Source: Prevotella sp.
GTDB taxonomy: Bacteria; Bacteroidota; Bacteroidia; Bacteroidales; Bacteroidaceae
Length of the DNA stretch: 34,189 nt
Assembly: GCA_017508965.1 (NCBI GenBank)
Contig: JAFWQT010000134.1
Span: 1-34,189 of the forward strand
Reading direction: 5' to 3'
Shown here: piece by piece, positions 23,223 to 29,479 of the stretch
How the letters are laid out: each line of letters opens with the position of its first letter
Numbering within the stretch: the first letter of the stretch is position 1
The notes under the pieces: generated by a model
The model's input: the letters and a program-made list of their open reading frames with translations, nothing else
Told to the model about the DNA's origin: nothing
Database searches by the model: none
Program-made: the position numbers and the translations under genes

Positions 23223-24194
23223 TTATTCGGGATTATAGCCAAAATTGTTGAGTTCCTTTTGCGACGAACGCCAGTCCTTGTCCACCTTCACGTAGGTCTC
23301 CAGGAAGATGCGCTTGTCGAAGAAACGCTCCAGTGCCTTCCGGCTCTCCATGCCCACCTTCTTCAGCGCCACGCCCTGATGACCGATGATGATTCCCTTC
23401 TGCGAGTCGCGCTCCACATAGATGATGGCACGGATGTTGATGCTCTTCTCCGTCTCCTTGAAACTCTCCACCACCACTTCCACGGAATAAGGGATTTCCT
23501 TGTCGTAGTAGAGCAAAATCTTCTCGCGGATAATCTCAGAAACGAAGAAACGGGCCGGCTTGTCGGTCAGCTGTTCTTTGTCAAAGTAGGCCGGACTCTC
23601 GGGCAGCAGCTCCTTGATGCGCTTCAGCAGCATGTCCACGCCGAACTTATTCTTTGCCGAAATGGGCAGAATCTCGGCATTGGGGAGCAACGTGTGCCAC
23701 TTCTCAACAATCGTGTTCAGCAACTGTTGGGTGTTGGGTGCTGGGTGTTGGGTGTTGGATGCTGGGTGTTGGGTGTTGGCTGATTGCTTTCCACCATCAC
23801 CTAACACCGAACACCTATCACCCAAACTATCAATCTTATTGATCAGCAAAATGACGGGAATCGTCATCTTCTGCACCTTCTCCAGGAAATCCATGTTCTT
23901 CTCGGGATTCTCAACCACGTCGGTCACGTAGAGCAGCACATCGGCATCGGCCAGCGCACTCTCAGAAAATGCCAGCATCGACTCCTGCAGCTTGTAGTTG
24001 GGTTTCAGCACGCCGGGCGTGTCGGAAAACACAATCTGCATGTCGTCGGTGTTCACAATGCCCATGATACGATGGCGGGTGGTCTGTGCCTTGAAGGTGG
24101 CAATAGAGATGCGCTCGCCCACCAGCTGGTTCATGAGCGTCGACTTTCCCACATTGGGATTACCCACAATATTTACGAATCCTGCCTTATGCAT
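23223..24194 (-). CDS. era: GTPase Era with an in-frame repeat insertion
   Basis: A 323-residue GTPase that binds 16S rRNA during 30S assembly. G1 GNPNVGKST is at 11-19, G3 DTPG at 58-61, G4 NKID at 119-122, G5 SAK at 179-181, and the C-terminal KH domain carries GHQGVALKKVG. Typical Era is about 295 residues. The excess lies at about 124-156, straight after G4, where a low-complexity stretch (ANTQHPASNTQHPAPNTQ within it) is encoded by G-rich tandem and inverted repeats at 23724-23822. Outside the insert the protein is complete and normal, so it is probably functional. Clustered with fabH, L32 and DUF177 upstream. Confidence 0.96.
   Translation of the reverse strand: MHKAGFVNIVGNPNVGKSTLMNQLVGERISIATFKAQTTRHRIMGIVNTDDMQIVFSDTPGVLKPNYKLQESMLAFSESALADADVLLYVTDVVENPEKNMDFLEKVQKMTIPVILLINKIDSLGDRCSVLGDGGKQSANTQHPASNTQHPAPNTQQLLNTIVEKWHTLLPNAEILPISAKNKFGVDMLLKRIKELLPESPAYFDKEQLTDKPARFFVSEIIREKILLYYDKEIPYSVEVVVESFKETEKSINIRAIIYVERDSQKGIIIGHQGVALKKVGMESRKALERFFDKRIFLETYVKVDKDWRSSQKELNNFGYNPE
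23724..23826. repeat. G-rich tandem/inverted repeat inside era
   Basis: The plus strand has six GGG runs between 23729 and 23773, most separated by TGTT or TGCT, then a C-rich stretch (23791-23825) that is an imperfect reverse complement of it. The whole unit is a multiple of three in effect and leaves era open. Confidence 0.85.
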
Positions 24195-26260: not shown

Positions 26261-26370
26261 CCCCTCCCATCGTAGGGGAGGGGCAAGGGGTAGGGTCAGT
26301 ATTTAGAAAACGAGGCTGATAACTAACATTACACTCCCCACCCCTACCCTCTCCCCTTCAGGGGCGAGGA
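26261..26370. repeat. Gene-less G/C-rich inverted-repeat element
   Basis: Left arm: hairpin CCCCTCCC (26261-26268) with GGGAGGGG (26276-26283), then AAGGGGTAGGG. About 35 bases of plain sequence follow. Right arm: ACCCCTACCC, then a hairpin CTCTCCCC (26349-26356), TTCA, GGGGCGAG (26361-26368). The arms are imperfect inverted copies. The 8-bp stem equals the stem inside the inverted repeats around the DUF559 gene. Confidence 0.7.
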
Positions 26371-26456: not shown

Positions 26457-26525
26457 AAAGTAATTTAGTCTAAATTGCAAAGTAATTTAGTCTAATTTAC
26501 TGAGCAATTTAGACTAAATTACTTT
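26457..26525. repeat. A-B-A' repeat upstream of the XRE-cupin gene
   Basis: A 22-bp unit (26457-26478) is followed at once by a direct copy of its first 17 bases (26479-26495) and then, at 26504-26525, by its exact 22-bp reverse complement. The core word is TAATTTAGTCTAAATT. It can form a 22-bp stem or serve as three protein sites. Confidence 0.85.
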
Positions 26526-26632
26526 GCATGTAATAATTAACTCCCACAGACCGATTTTGGGCAAATTGTAATGTAAAGAGGCAAATAATTTATCAATTAT
26601 CAATTGGGAATCATCTTTTTTCGAGATTTTGA

Positions 26633-26690: not shown

Positions 26691-27275
26691 ATGTCAAATA
26701 ACAATTCATCCGTAGGATCAAAAATCAAGGCAATCAGAGAATCAAAGAATCTCTCTATTGAAGAAATTTCAGAAAGCAGCGGCCTTTCCAAAGAACAGAT
26801 TATCTCTATTGAGGAAGGACAGAACCTGCCATCGCTGGGTCCGCTCATCAAGATCGCACGCGCATTGGGCGTAAGGCTGGGCACCTTCATGGACGACAAC
26901 GACGCGCTGGGGCCCGTTGTGTGCCGTGCCGCCGACCGTGAGCGCGCCAGCAGCATCAGTTTCTCGAACGGAGCCACCGATGCCCGCAAGCACATGGAGT
27001 ATCACCCGTTGGCACAGCAGAAGGCCGGCCGCCACATGGAGCCGTTCGTCATCGACATCAATCCCGAAGAGAGTCCCGATTTCCAGCTCTCGGCCCACGA
27101 GGGTGAGGAATTCATCTACGTGATGCAGGGCGAGGTGGAGATTGTGTATGGCAAGGAGAAATATACGCTGAAAGAGGGCGACTCCATCTTCTACGACTCT
27201 ATCGTGAAGCACCACGTGCACGGTGCTCCAGGAAAGTCGGCCAAGATTCTCGCAGTGGTCTATATTCCATTCTAA
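26691..27275 (+). CDS. XRE-family transcriptional regulator with C-terminal cupin domain
   Basis: A 194-residue regulator. Residues 10-66 are a Cro/C1-type helix-turn-helix (KIKAIRESKNLSIEEISESSGLSKEQIISIEEG). Residues 115-190 are a cupin_2 sensor barrel with HEGEEFIYVMQGEVEIVYG, KEGDSIFYDSIVKHHV and the closing ILAVVYIPF. This design is used by repressors that sense small acids or sugars. Codons are GC-rich, as in the ligase gene that follows the DUF559 cassette; the regulator and ligase probably formed one operon before the cassette came between them. Its likely target is its own upstream region with the A-B-A' repeat; this is inference. Confidence 0.92.
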   Translation: MSNNNSSVGSKIKAIRESKNLSIEEISESSGLSKEQIISIEEGQNLPSLGPLIKIARALGVRLGTFMDDNDALGPVVCRAADRERASSISFSNGATDARKHMEYHPLAQQKAGRHMEPFVIDINPEESPDFQLSAHEGEEFIYVMQGEVEIVYGKEKYTLKEGDSIFYDSIVKHHVHGAPGKSAKILAVVYIPF

Positions 27276-27279
27276 AAAA

Positions 27280-27320
27280 GAGACTCTCCCCCTGCCCCTC
27301 CCTGGAGGGAGGGGAGTAGA
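27280..27320 (+). repeat. Left inverted repeat of the DUF559 cassette
   Basis: Begins GAGACTCTCCCCC, continues with a hairpin CCCCTCCC-TGGA-GGGAGGGG and ends GAGTAGA. It pairs with 27722-27763. Confidence 0.9.
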
Positions 27321-27330
27321 TACTTTTGTT

Positions 27331-27699
27331 ATGAGCTACAAGACGGCCTCGCCTGACAGATATGGACTGCTCAAAGGGTATGCCCGTGAGAACAGAAAGA
27401 ACGCGACCTTGGCAGAATCTGTTCTATGGGAACACTTGAGGAAGAATTCTTTTGGGCAAAAGTTTCTGCGTCAGCATATCATAGGCGATTATATAGTTGA
27501 CTTTGTTTCGCAACTTGGCGATCTTGTAATTGAGGTTGACGGTGGTTACCATTCTGAACCTAGACAACAGGCCGATGATGAACTCAGAGAGAAAGAACTT
27601 GAAAAAATGGGATATCATGTGATTCGCTTCACAAATGAAGATGTTCTTAATAATATTAATAATGTAATTGACCAAATAGAAAGTTATTTCAATGGATGA
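27331..27699 (+). CDS. DUF559 (Vsr/PD-(D/E)XK nuclease-like) protein
   Basis: A 122-residue protein of the DUF559 family, related in fold to very-short-patch-repair endonucleases. I start at ATG 27331, 10 bases inside the left repeat; an upstream in-frame ATG would be inside the cupin gene. It opens with the family helix ([20 protein letters not shown], Glu29), then [16 protein letters not shown] (Asp57), then [12 protein letters not shown] (Glu68, Asp70), giving the E/D...ExD arrangement of a metal-dependent nuclease site. The end, [24 protein letters not shown], matches the family. Codons are clearly more A/T-rich than those of both neighbours, so it is probably a recent arrival. Activity is inferred, not shown. 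Confidence 0.9.
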
Positions 27700-27721
27700 G
27701 AAATATATAAATAACCAGTCC

Positions 27722-27763
27722 TCTACTCCCCTCCCTCACAGGGAGGGGGCGGGGGAGAGTCTC
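27722..27763 (-). repeat. Right inverted repeat of the DUF559 cassette
   Basis: Reverse complement of the left repeat except for two substitutions and one extra T. It reads TCTACTCCCC at the inner end and GAGAGTCTC at the outer end, 9 bases before ATG 27773 of the ligase. Confidence 0.9.
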
Positions 27764-27772
27764 CGTTATGAC

Positions 27773-29479
27773 ATGGCGGGGCGTCCGCTGCCTGACAGGA
27801 CATATCCTGCCGAGACGGGTTCGGAAGGCTATACGCTACATGAGCGTACGCTCGGCCAGTGGCTGGAATACTGGGCCGAGACGACGCCCGACAAGGAGTA
27901 TATCGTGTACAGCGACCGCGACCTGCGCTTCACATGGTCGAAGTTCAACGAGCGCGTGGACAACCTGGCCAAGGGCCTGATTGCCATCGGCGTGAAGCGA
28001 GGCTCGAACGTGGGCATCTGGGCAACGAACGTGCCCGACTGGCTCACCTTCCTTTATGCCACGGCAAAGATCGGCGCCGTGCTGGTGACGGTGAACACCA
28101 ACTACAAGCAGAACGAGCTGGAGTTTCTGTGCAAGGACTCCGACATGGAAGTGCTCTGCATCACCGACGGCACCTGGGACTGTAACTATGTGGACATGAC
28201 CTACACCATGCTGCCCGAACTGAAGACCTGCGAGCGCGGCCATCTGAACAGCGAGCGCTTCCCCTATCTGAAGAGCGTGGTCTACATTGGCATGGAAAAG
28301 TATCGCGGCATGTACAATACCGCCGAACTGCTGCTGCTGGGACAGAACATCGAGGACGAGACGCTTCTGGAGATGAAGAGCAAGGTGACCTGCCACGATG
28401 TATGCAACATGCAGTACACCAGCGGTACCACAGGATTCCCGAAGGGCGTGATGCTGACACACTACGGCATTGCCAACGACGGCTATTTCACGGGCGAGAA
28501 CATGGGATTCACGCAAGACGACAAGCTCTGCGTCTGTGTTCCCTTGTTCCACTGCTTCGGCGTAGTGCTGGCCACGATGAACTGTCTGACGCACGGCTGC
28601 ACCGAGGTGATGGTCGAGAAGTTCGACCCGCTGGTGGTGCTGGCCTCCATCCATAAAGAAAGGTGTACGGCGGTATATGGTGTGCCCACCATGTTCATTG
28701 CTGAGCTGAACCATCCCATGTTCTCTATGTTCGACCTGACCTGTCTGCGCACAGGCATCATGGCGGGCAGCCTCTGTCCGGTGGAACTGATGAAGCAGGT
28801 GTCGGAGAAGATGTATATGACTATCACGAGCGTTTACGGACTGACGGAGTCGTCGCCCGGCATGACGCAGACTTGCCTGAACGATACATTCGAGCAGCGC
28901 TGCACGACGGTTGGCCGCGACTTCCCCTTTGTAGACGTGAAAGTGCTCGACCCCGAGACCGGCGAGGAATGTCCCGTAGGCGTGCAGGGCGAGATGTGCT
29001 GCAAGGGCTTCAACGTGATGAAGGGCTACTATAAGAATCCAGAAGCCACGGCGGAGGTCATCGACAAGAACGGCTATCTGCACTCGGGCGACCTGGGCGT
29101 AAAGGACGAACAGGGATTCTATAAGATTACAGGCCGCATCAAAGACATGATTATCCGCGGCGGCGAGAACATCTATCCGCGCGAAATCGAGGAGTTCCTC
29201 TACCACATGCCCGGCATACGCGACGTACAGGTGGCTGCCGTGCCGTCGAAGAAGTATGGCGAGGCCGTGGGGGCCTTCATCATCCTCGAAGAGGGGGCCA
29301 AGATGACTGCCGAGGACGTGCAGCTGTTCTGCCGCGGGAAGATAGCCCGCTACAAGATTCCGAAATACGTATTCTTCATCGACCAGTTCCCGCTGACGGG
29401 TTCTGGCAAAATCCAGAAGTTCAAGCTGAAGGAAATGAGCCTGAAACTCTGCGAGGAACAAGGTATCGAGGTTATTTGA
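27773..29479 (+). CDS. AMP-forming acyl-CoA synthetase (acyl/fatty-acid-CoA ligase)
   Basis: A protein of about 568 residues in the adenylate-forming family; it activates a carboxylic acid with ATP and joins it to CoA in the cytoplasm. Motifs in order: [20 protein letters not shown] (P-loop), [44 protein letters not shown] (hinge and core), and [13 protein letters not shown] with the catalytic Lys. The frame is open from ATG 27692, but that start lies inside the DUF559 gene and translates the inverted repeat; ATG 27773 starts just beyond it and gives [16 protein letters not shown]. The chain length preference is not clear. It pairs with the XRE-cupin regulator and ends at a strong terminator. 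Confidence 0.9.

Follow-up and report, generated by a model that had tools for sequence, protein, structure and literature searches.

A DUF559 nuclease gene flanked by inverted arms forms a cassette of 484 bp (27280-27763) between an XRE-cupin gene and an acyl-CoA ligase gene in a 34,189-nt stretch of Prevotella sp. DNA, hereafter called the window, and this cassette is almost certainly a mobile unit. It is likely to represent an autonomous, homing-like element of about 0.5 kb, made of a DUF559 (Vsr-like) nuclease gene between palindrome-bearing inverted ends. We consider it quite likely that DUF559 is the mobiliser, and slightly favour a break-and-copy process over classical transposition. 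A minimal mobile unit consisting of one nuclease and palindromic ends had been put forward in a first-pass annotation of this DNA; it is supported here by empty junctions, by the association of the repeats with DUF559 genes and by transfer of the cassette as a unit.

Results

A single DUF559 gene lies between matching inverted arms

The two arms of the window cassette (Table 1) aligned over 42 columns with 39 identities, 2 mismatches and 1 gap. The flank score was 67, and the best score among 2000 dinucleotide shuffles was 30 (0/2000 as good), confirming that the terminal inverted repeats are near-perfect. As first described, one DUF559 gene takes up nearly all of the space between them (Pfam E = 1.8e-32); no other gene was found between the arms. 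The start of the cassette 4 nt past the cupin stop codon (27275) was also correct, and so was the reported A/T-richness of its codons as compared to both neighbours: GC content was 0.40 in the DUF559 gene versus 0.53 and 0.57 in the neighbours, and 0.37 versus 0.68 and 0.80 at third codon positions.

Other parts of the initial description required adjustment. The right end had been placed 9 nt before the likely ligase ATG; an in-frame ATG is indeed found at 27773, but it may not be the start now used. Each repeat had been said to be able to fold by itself. Single arms can fold as DNA (-9.0 and -10.4 kcal/mol), but the z-scores were modest (-0.71 and -2.00). Since single-strand folding of the arms was not outstanding, folding energy was dropped as evidence, and the argument from the window is the arm-arm match together with its recurrence. 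The absence of a transposase holds in that there is no second gene between the arms and no Y1 match, Y1 being the sole transposase family searched.

Table 1 Position of the cassette, its parts and the neighbouring features in the window
Feature	Coordinates	Strand	Remarks
Left inverted arm with its own palindrome (CCCCTCCCTGGAGGGAGGGG)	27280..27320	+	41 nt
Inner sequence AGTAGATACTTTTG	27315..27328	+	Adjoins the left palindrome
DUF559 nuclease gene (Vsr-like, PD-(D/E)XK-type), 122 aa	27331..27699	+	Pfam E = 1.8e-32; conserved columns; PDB relatives
Candidate supplied start codon ATG	27692..27694	+	Overlaps the DUF559 end; ligase frame through the right arm; use inferred
Right inverted arm, 42 nt	27722..27763	-	Read through in the ligase frame
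Upstream host gene, XRE-cupin	26691..27275	+	Ends 4 nt ahead of the left arm
Downstream host gene, AMP-binding (acyl-CoA ligase type)	27692..29479	+	Open frame extended through the right arm
Solitary palindrome CCCCTCCCATCGTAGGGGAGGGG	26261..26283		Same general type, outside the cassette

Two other repetitive features were noticed in the window. A/T-rich inverted repeats (TAATTTAGTCTAAATT type), unlike the G-rich palindromes, lie upstream of the cupin gene (26460-26530). An Era-like GTPase with a KH domain (23223-24194, minus strand; Pfam MMR_HSR1 and KH_2) contains a repetitive in-frame stretch, NTQHPASNTQHPAPNTQ, between its domains.

Relatives carry empty sites

The cassette and its repeats were absent from 12/12 congeneric loci with adjacent cupin and ligase genes, indicating that the cassette is an insertion. 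The gaps between matched parts in these junctions measured 19-112 nt (four of them include the first ligase codons) and contained neither G-rich repeats nor a nuclease gene. Relatives with the junction and without the cassette, which the first-pass annotation had named as a check, were therefore found, and the repeats were missing from them as well. Judged by the sequences, the window insertion just behind the cupin stop is one that altered the first ligase codons. The empty junction of L050 holds a different, A/T-rich palindrome (CGTTATCACGTGATAACG); the cupin-ligase junction thus attracts other repeats too.

Similar comparisons were made at other sites. At the yicC|gmk junction, a long repeat-bearing insert was present in 4/27 complete relatives and missing in 23/27; three more were incomplete. 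The leucyl-tRNA synthetase (LeuRS) gene that carries DUF559 in L147 was uninterrupted at that site in 5/6 aligned relatives (6 aligned out of 14 loci fetched) and contained a short remnant-like insert in the sixth. This insert, in the LeuRS of L301 (G023), encodes the arm-like peptide APLSSPEGD and occupies the place of the L147 DUF559, possibly as a remnant left by loss of the nuclease. No target-site duplication was found in L206 versus L203, the one clean case. A different arrangement was seen in L089 (G232) compared to L290 (G350), where a 285-bp direct duplication (97% identical) of a host gene lies on either side of the DUF559-cassette insert. This host gene is uninterrupted in G350, and part of the insert looks like the end of the gene that precedes the L084 cassette. 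This duplication suggests a repair-type insertion.

Inverted arms recur around DUF559 genes

A DUF559 match was found in 170/296 sampled Bacteroidota genomes, and five DUF559 genes were found in the genome of the window (71% complete). Each of the five is enclosed by a pair of inverted, palindrome-bearing repeats that has its own sequence. Among the DUF559 loci of this genome and its relatives, 22/27 had a flank score of at least 31. Mismatched left-right arm pairs reached 31 in 21/162 cases (maximum 57) because unrelated loci share G-rich palindromes. As this control was blurred, random segments of the same loci were used instead. With these controls, 62/76 further Bacteroidota loci scored at least 30 versus 3/400 random segments (76/80 loci were kept, four being dropped for having less than 250 bp on one side). 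A broader Bacteroidota sample, for which there was no matched control, had arms of this score at 19/29 loci. In other phyla, represented by records of a plasmid collection (21 of 48 matching records), such arms were found at 12/21 loci versus 9/240 control segments, the latter drawn from 12 longer loci only. By group, these were 4/4 Deinococcus, 5/9 alphaproteobacterial, 3/6 cyanobacterial and 0/2 gammaproteobacterial loci. Against these controls, DUF559 genes and inverted repeats were associated across many loci. Duplicate loci (L156, L172 and L194) were removed from the in-frame, orientation, start-codon, tree, protein-arm, residue and stop-distance counts.

The 14/76 Bacteroidota loci scoring below 30, some of which resemble eroded repeats by eye, were counted against the element reading, as were the 9/21 loci below 30 outside Bacteroidota, including both gammaproteobacterial ones. 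The arms are reversed, with the palindrome outside and the G-rich tail inside, in L004 and L005 (this genome) and in L039; the reversed arms of L004 and L005 were also counted against the element. The DUF559 proteins of these three loci share one weakly supported part of the tree, and arm orientation may follow nuclease lineage. On the Sphingomonas plasmids L112 and L281, the transhydrogenase and sufB-sufC gene series are interrupted by DUF559 cassettes. A possible ribosome-binding site before the next ATG is GGGGAGGAATAAG, the end of the L112 right arm.

Cassettes move as units and reach new sites

Two Prevotella-type genomes (L175 and L180) carry cassettes of about 470 bp at the same argG|argC junction that differ by one base. 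Identity drops to 85% and 78-81% in the flanks, with the transition at the arms on both sides. With a near-identical cassette in diverged flanks, we conclude that the cassette moved as a unit. Within argC, L180 has a stretch 60 nt longer than in L175; this stretch reads as a palindrome doublet without DUF559, and its extra length is a multiple of three. The cassette was also more alike than the flanks in L036/L173, L186/L187 and L134/L151, and slightly so in L157/L160. At least five same-site pairs (L116/L117, L135/L146, L024/L118, L137/L154 and L138/L161) had a cassette no more alike than its flanks; plain descent would give this picture, and these pairs were counted against the element. Site groups were named partly by eye. 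For ten host proteins checked, a family match at E 1e-20 or better was obtained in nine, several of these falling short of the curated cut-off.

The cassettes nearest to that of the window by protein (L166, L139, L149, L192 and L189) have similar arms, with weak tree support. For those with an identified downstream gene, this gene differs from the ligase of the window: a LolD/MacB-like ATPase in L166 and fmt in L189. Taken together with the same-site pairs, these related cassettes elsewhere indicate that cassettes both persist at sites and reach new ones. Between cassettes at different sites, arm similarity went together with similarity of the DUF559 proteins (2420 pairs from 71 loci with an arm score of at least 40 and arms up to 75 nt; rho 0.22, 4/2000 permutations). 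Such coupling would be expected if protein and arm work together, and is the sole support for an action of the protein on the palindrome.

Palindromes are dispersed and form nuclease-less doublets

The palindrome CCCTCCC-N(0-10)-GGGAGGG has 188 sites in this genome and 0 for the backwards control; a narrower pattern gave 9 matches per strand in this genome and 0 in four others. A 306-kb sample of the genome, with contigs partly chosen for holding hits, contained 45 palindromes. Six pairs at most 150 nt apart were oriented tail-outward, the geometry of the cassette, and had no DUF559 between them; no reverse pairs were found at such distances. DUF559 lies within each of the two tail-outward pairs spaced at 150-700 nt and within the only tail-inward pair (542 nt, L004); four further pairs at 150-700 nt had other or unclear orientations. 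The possibility raised by the first-pass annotation that the repeats flank unrelated genes equally often does not therefore hold in this sample. Furthermore, the inner sequence AGTAGATACTTTTG of the window cassette recurs on contig C153 (L258), where it adjoins the palindrome of a doublet that has no DUF559.

Across 36 congeners, palindrome count tracked DUF559 count (Spearman 0.62, p 5e-5, a value that ignores phylogeny and genome completeness) and did not increase with the count of Y1 transposases (rho -0.18, p 0.30, phylogeny not corrected). In the comparison of median palindrome counts, G007, G017 and G020, which gave weak partial DUF559 hits, were classed as lacking DUF559. Several congeners have palindromes and no DUF559 match (e.g. 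13 palindromes in G032 and 24 in G027), and G030 has five DUF559 matches but only two palindromes; both observations were counted against the element. A search for Y1 (RAYT-type) transposases gave no match in this genome (71% complete, 188 palindromes) or in G019 (217 palindromes). Given this result and the correlation of -0.18, RAYT was rejected as the mobiliser.

Cassettes often offer a candidate start codon to the downstream gene

Between genes, cassettes have the orientation of the downstream gene in 65/69 cases and of the upstream gene in 60/75 (neighbours within 250 bp). The left arm begins at most 12 nt from the upstream stop codon in 49/60, with a median of 0. In 67 stand-alone cassettes whose downstream frame was clear, we looked for ATG codons near the DUF559 stop or beyond it, but ahead of the arm. 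Such an ATG continued through the right arm in the frame of the downstream gene in 41/67, compared to 3 and 1 for the other two frames. Frames open through the arm numbered 54, 41 and 37 of 67, so the excess cannot be put down to an open arm alone. The window follows the same pattern, its ligase frame being open from the ATG that overlaps the DUF559 end (27692) through the right arm. In relatives, an ATG lies about 7-9 codons further upstream than the window ATG at 27773. The supplied ATG is quite probably the one used by the host gene.

Nuclease-less doublets showed a similar behaviour. At the argG|argC junction of this genome (L206), a doublet insert is bordered by GAGAT and GATTAGG. Compared to four tight relatives, the junction has 128 additional nt, and a candidate start is added to argC, MDNIKQKVSTPLHHREGLGGG... 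Four of the eight doublets checked carry such a start (L206, L258, L259 and L261), and three have neither a start nor an in-frame position. A second L261 doublet is in frame inside the same gene. This gene (L261, 11803-12388), RNA methyltransferase-like by eye, thus holds two nuclease-less doublets, one at the start and one in frame in the interior.

DUF559 is found in frame inside conserved genes

Among 133 loci, at least 60 open codons were found on both sides of DUF559 in 31, downstream only in 9 and upstream only in 11. Pfam analysis of 30 such ORFs (L037 and L172 among them being the same locus) identified a host family in 27 and DUF559 alone in 3. Host families included leucyl- and valyl-tRNA synthetases, GH31, FGAM synthase, UvrA, an ABC-F type ATPase, helicase, guanylate kinase, aconitase, GcpE, YgbB and others. 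One host ORF, judged by its domains, we take to be an isoleucyl-tRNA synthetase. Pfam hits in the 30 ORFs consisted of DUF559, host domains and, in some, the related MTES_1575 model; no protein-splicing domain was among them. The nuclease presumably stays within the host protein. Both the in-frame insertions and the supplied start codon are additions to what the first-pass annotation had described.

A cyanobacterial methyltransferase ORF contains a DUF559 (L276), and on the cyanobacterial plasmids L276 and L278 the domain occurs within or next to BREX-type genes (brxC, PglX). DUF559 was also found inside ORFs resembling HsdR by eye (L085, L087, L091 and L100). A taste of the cassettes for defence genes is possible.

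The nuclease domain is conserved and resembles a mobile-intron protein

A profile built from 27 DUF559 proteins matched PDB 3hrl, an endonuclease-like protein (E = 2e-31), and 3r3p, a mobile-intron protein (E = 7.9e-8) that we take to be I-Bth0305I. Residues E29, D57, E68 and D83 were conserved in 133/133 sequences and H74 in 132/133; all five were intact in 51/51 fused copies. These residues may correspond to the EDxHD motif, although the 3r3p alignment differs from DUF559 at some of the five columns. The dN/dS ratio was 0.05-0.44 in 7/11 pairs and not computable in the other four; by this measure, the nuclease is under purifying selection. The conserved residues and the low dN/dS make an active nuclease likely, even in fusions to host proteins. 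YcjD is presumably a DUF559 relative. A 2005 paper lists YcjD as a known PD-(D/E)XK member (PMC1189080). In Caulobacter methyltransferase mutants, DNA damage has been connected with the DUF559 protein VsrA, for which a role in VSP repair was proposed (PMC12907096). One DUF559 gene has already been placed in the EDxHD homing family (PMC9403480).

Discussion

Three other explanations of these data were weighed. DUF559 could be a classical free-standing EDxHD homing endonuclease gene that cleaves a site in a conserved gene and is copied by repair, the palindromes being bystanders. Homology to the mobile-intron protein 3r3p, the reuse of the same sites (e.g. argG|argC, gmk and LeuRS) and the same-site pairs with excess cassette similarity are in agreement with this. 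Bystander palindromes, however, do not account for the matching arms at most loci and an arm sequence that follows the protein, for nuclease-less doublets with similar ends and inner sequence, or for related cassettes at different sites, and we regard this explanation as unlikely. Nuclease-less doublets at unrelated sites, which strict homing would not predict, were also counted against the homing-like element that we prefer. Alternatively, DUF559 could be cargo, with the palindromes mobilised by another enzyme or by repeat recombination. As such a model would have it, there are more palindromes than DUF559 genes, and some congeners have palindromes but no DUF559 match. Against this stand the lack of a Y1 match in this genome or G019 and of a positive correlation (for Y1, the sole family searched), the fact that no other gene was seen between tail-outward pairs on the sampled contigs, and the strong selection on the conserved residues, all of which make a role as mere cargo improbable.

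The third explanation is an immobile DNA-repair or defence nuclease that lies between hairpin terminators by chance. The arms can fold, some cyanobacterial copies adjoin BREX-type genes, and Caulobacter VsrA is a proposed VSP-repair enzyme (PMC12907096). Immobility is at odds with the empty sites and with the transfer as a unit in L175/L180, and in-frame insertion in enzymes, the existence of doublets and frames open through the arms into host proteins argue against it as well; we find this explanation scarcely credible. For the autonomous homing-like element that we prefer, the following mechanism can be envisaged. The nuclease would recognise a hairpin or cruciform of its own arms and make breaks. 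Repair of these breaks would copy the cassette, in most cases to the same site in another allele, as in homing, and sometimes to a new site. Doublets would spread in trans or arise via internal deletion. A host gene could come to depend on the start codon or reading frame of the cassette, and deletion of the element would therefore tend to damage a useful gene. Insertions that are in frame or supply a start would survive because the host gene still works, and would then be hard to lose.

Several known systems share features with the DUF559 cassette. EDxHD homing endonucleases such as I-Bth0305I (3r3p, by our identification; E = 7.9e-8) have a homologous Vsr-like nuclease domain and also settle in conserved genes, but the cassette differs from them in its palindromic inverted ends, dispersed nuclease-less copies and proposed start-codon capture. 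The EDxHD type has been described as a long multi-domain protein with a target of nearly 60 bp (PMC3943268), whereas the window protein has 122 aa and only the Pfam nuclease domain. REP/REPIN sequences with RAYT (TnpA-REP) resemble the cassette in their many-copy short palindromes, inverted doublets and an enzyme gene between its own repeats (PMC3733652). Palindromes that partly occur as doublets and flank the enzyme were likewise found here (188 sites; 6 tail-outward doublets in 306 kb). The enzyme of the cassette is nevertheless a Vsr-like nuclease and not a Y1/HUH transposase, none of which was found in this genome, and DUF559 cassettes, unlike RAYT/REP, insert in frame and at start codons. 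The same paper mentions that CGTC-type REPs have no dedicated transposase (PMC3733652).

Rickettsia palindromic elements are palindromic units found in frame in unrelated genes (PMC10969869). The nuclease-less L261 doublet and the in-frame cassettes have the same habit, compared here by description only; unlike these elements, the full-length DUF559 form has a nuclease gene and its ends also offer candidate start codons. Inteins with homing endonuclease domains similarly carry a nuclease in the reading frame of conserved genes, often ones with housekeeping roles, but no splicing domain was present in the Pfam hits of 30 DUF559 ORFs. Vsr repair nucleases and VsrA belong to a related nuclease family (PMC12907096, PMC1189080). 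They differ from the window gene, which is part of a mobile unit and for which no repair context was seen. Among papers mentioning DUF559 in a full-text search, titles and abstract openings contained nothing on repeats around DUF559. The literature covered on nucleases, repeats and mobility, mostly non-subscription papers, held no description of such an element, and the claim of novelty is bounded accordingly. The combination of a Vsr-like nuclease, palindromic dispersed ends and start-codon or in-frame insertion matches none of the families whose defining features were compared here. On present evidence, the DUF559 cassette combines the behaviour of a homing gene with that of a REP system, without belonging fully to either.

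DUF559 is a common domain of unknown function, and on balance we lean towards regarding DUF559 cassettes as a widespread class of element that occurs in four or more phyla, relies on a single Vsr-like nuclease to spread its own palindromic ends, accounts for many G-rich palindromes for which no transposase is known and persists by start-codon capture. They would represent REP-type mobility without HUH enzymes and a splicing-free counterpart of inteins. For annotation, N-termini such as TPLPHREG... and inserts within LeuRS or enzymes of the IleRS type can be mobile-element sequence. If DUF559 is a homing-like motor, it would explain a class of palindromic repeats, provide a non-HUH enzyme for REP-type mobility and reveal selfish DNA that lives inside housekeeping proteins without splicing.
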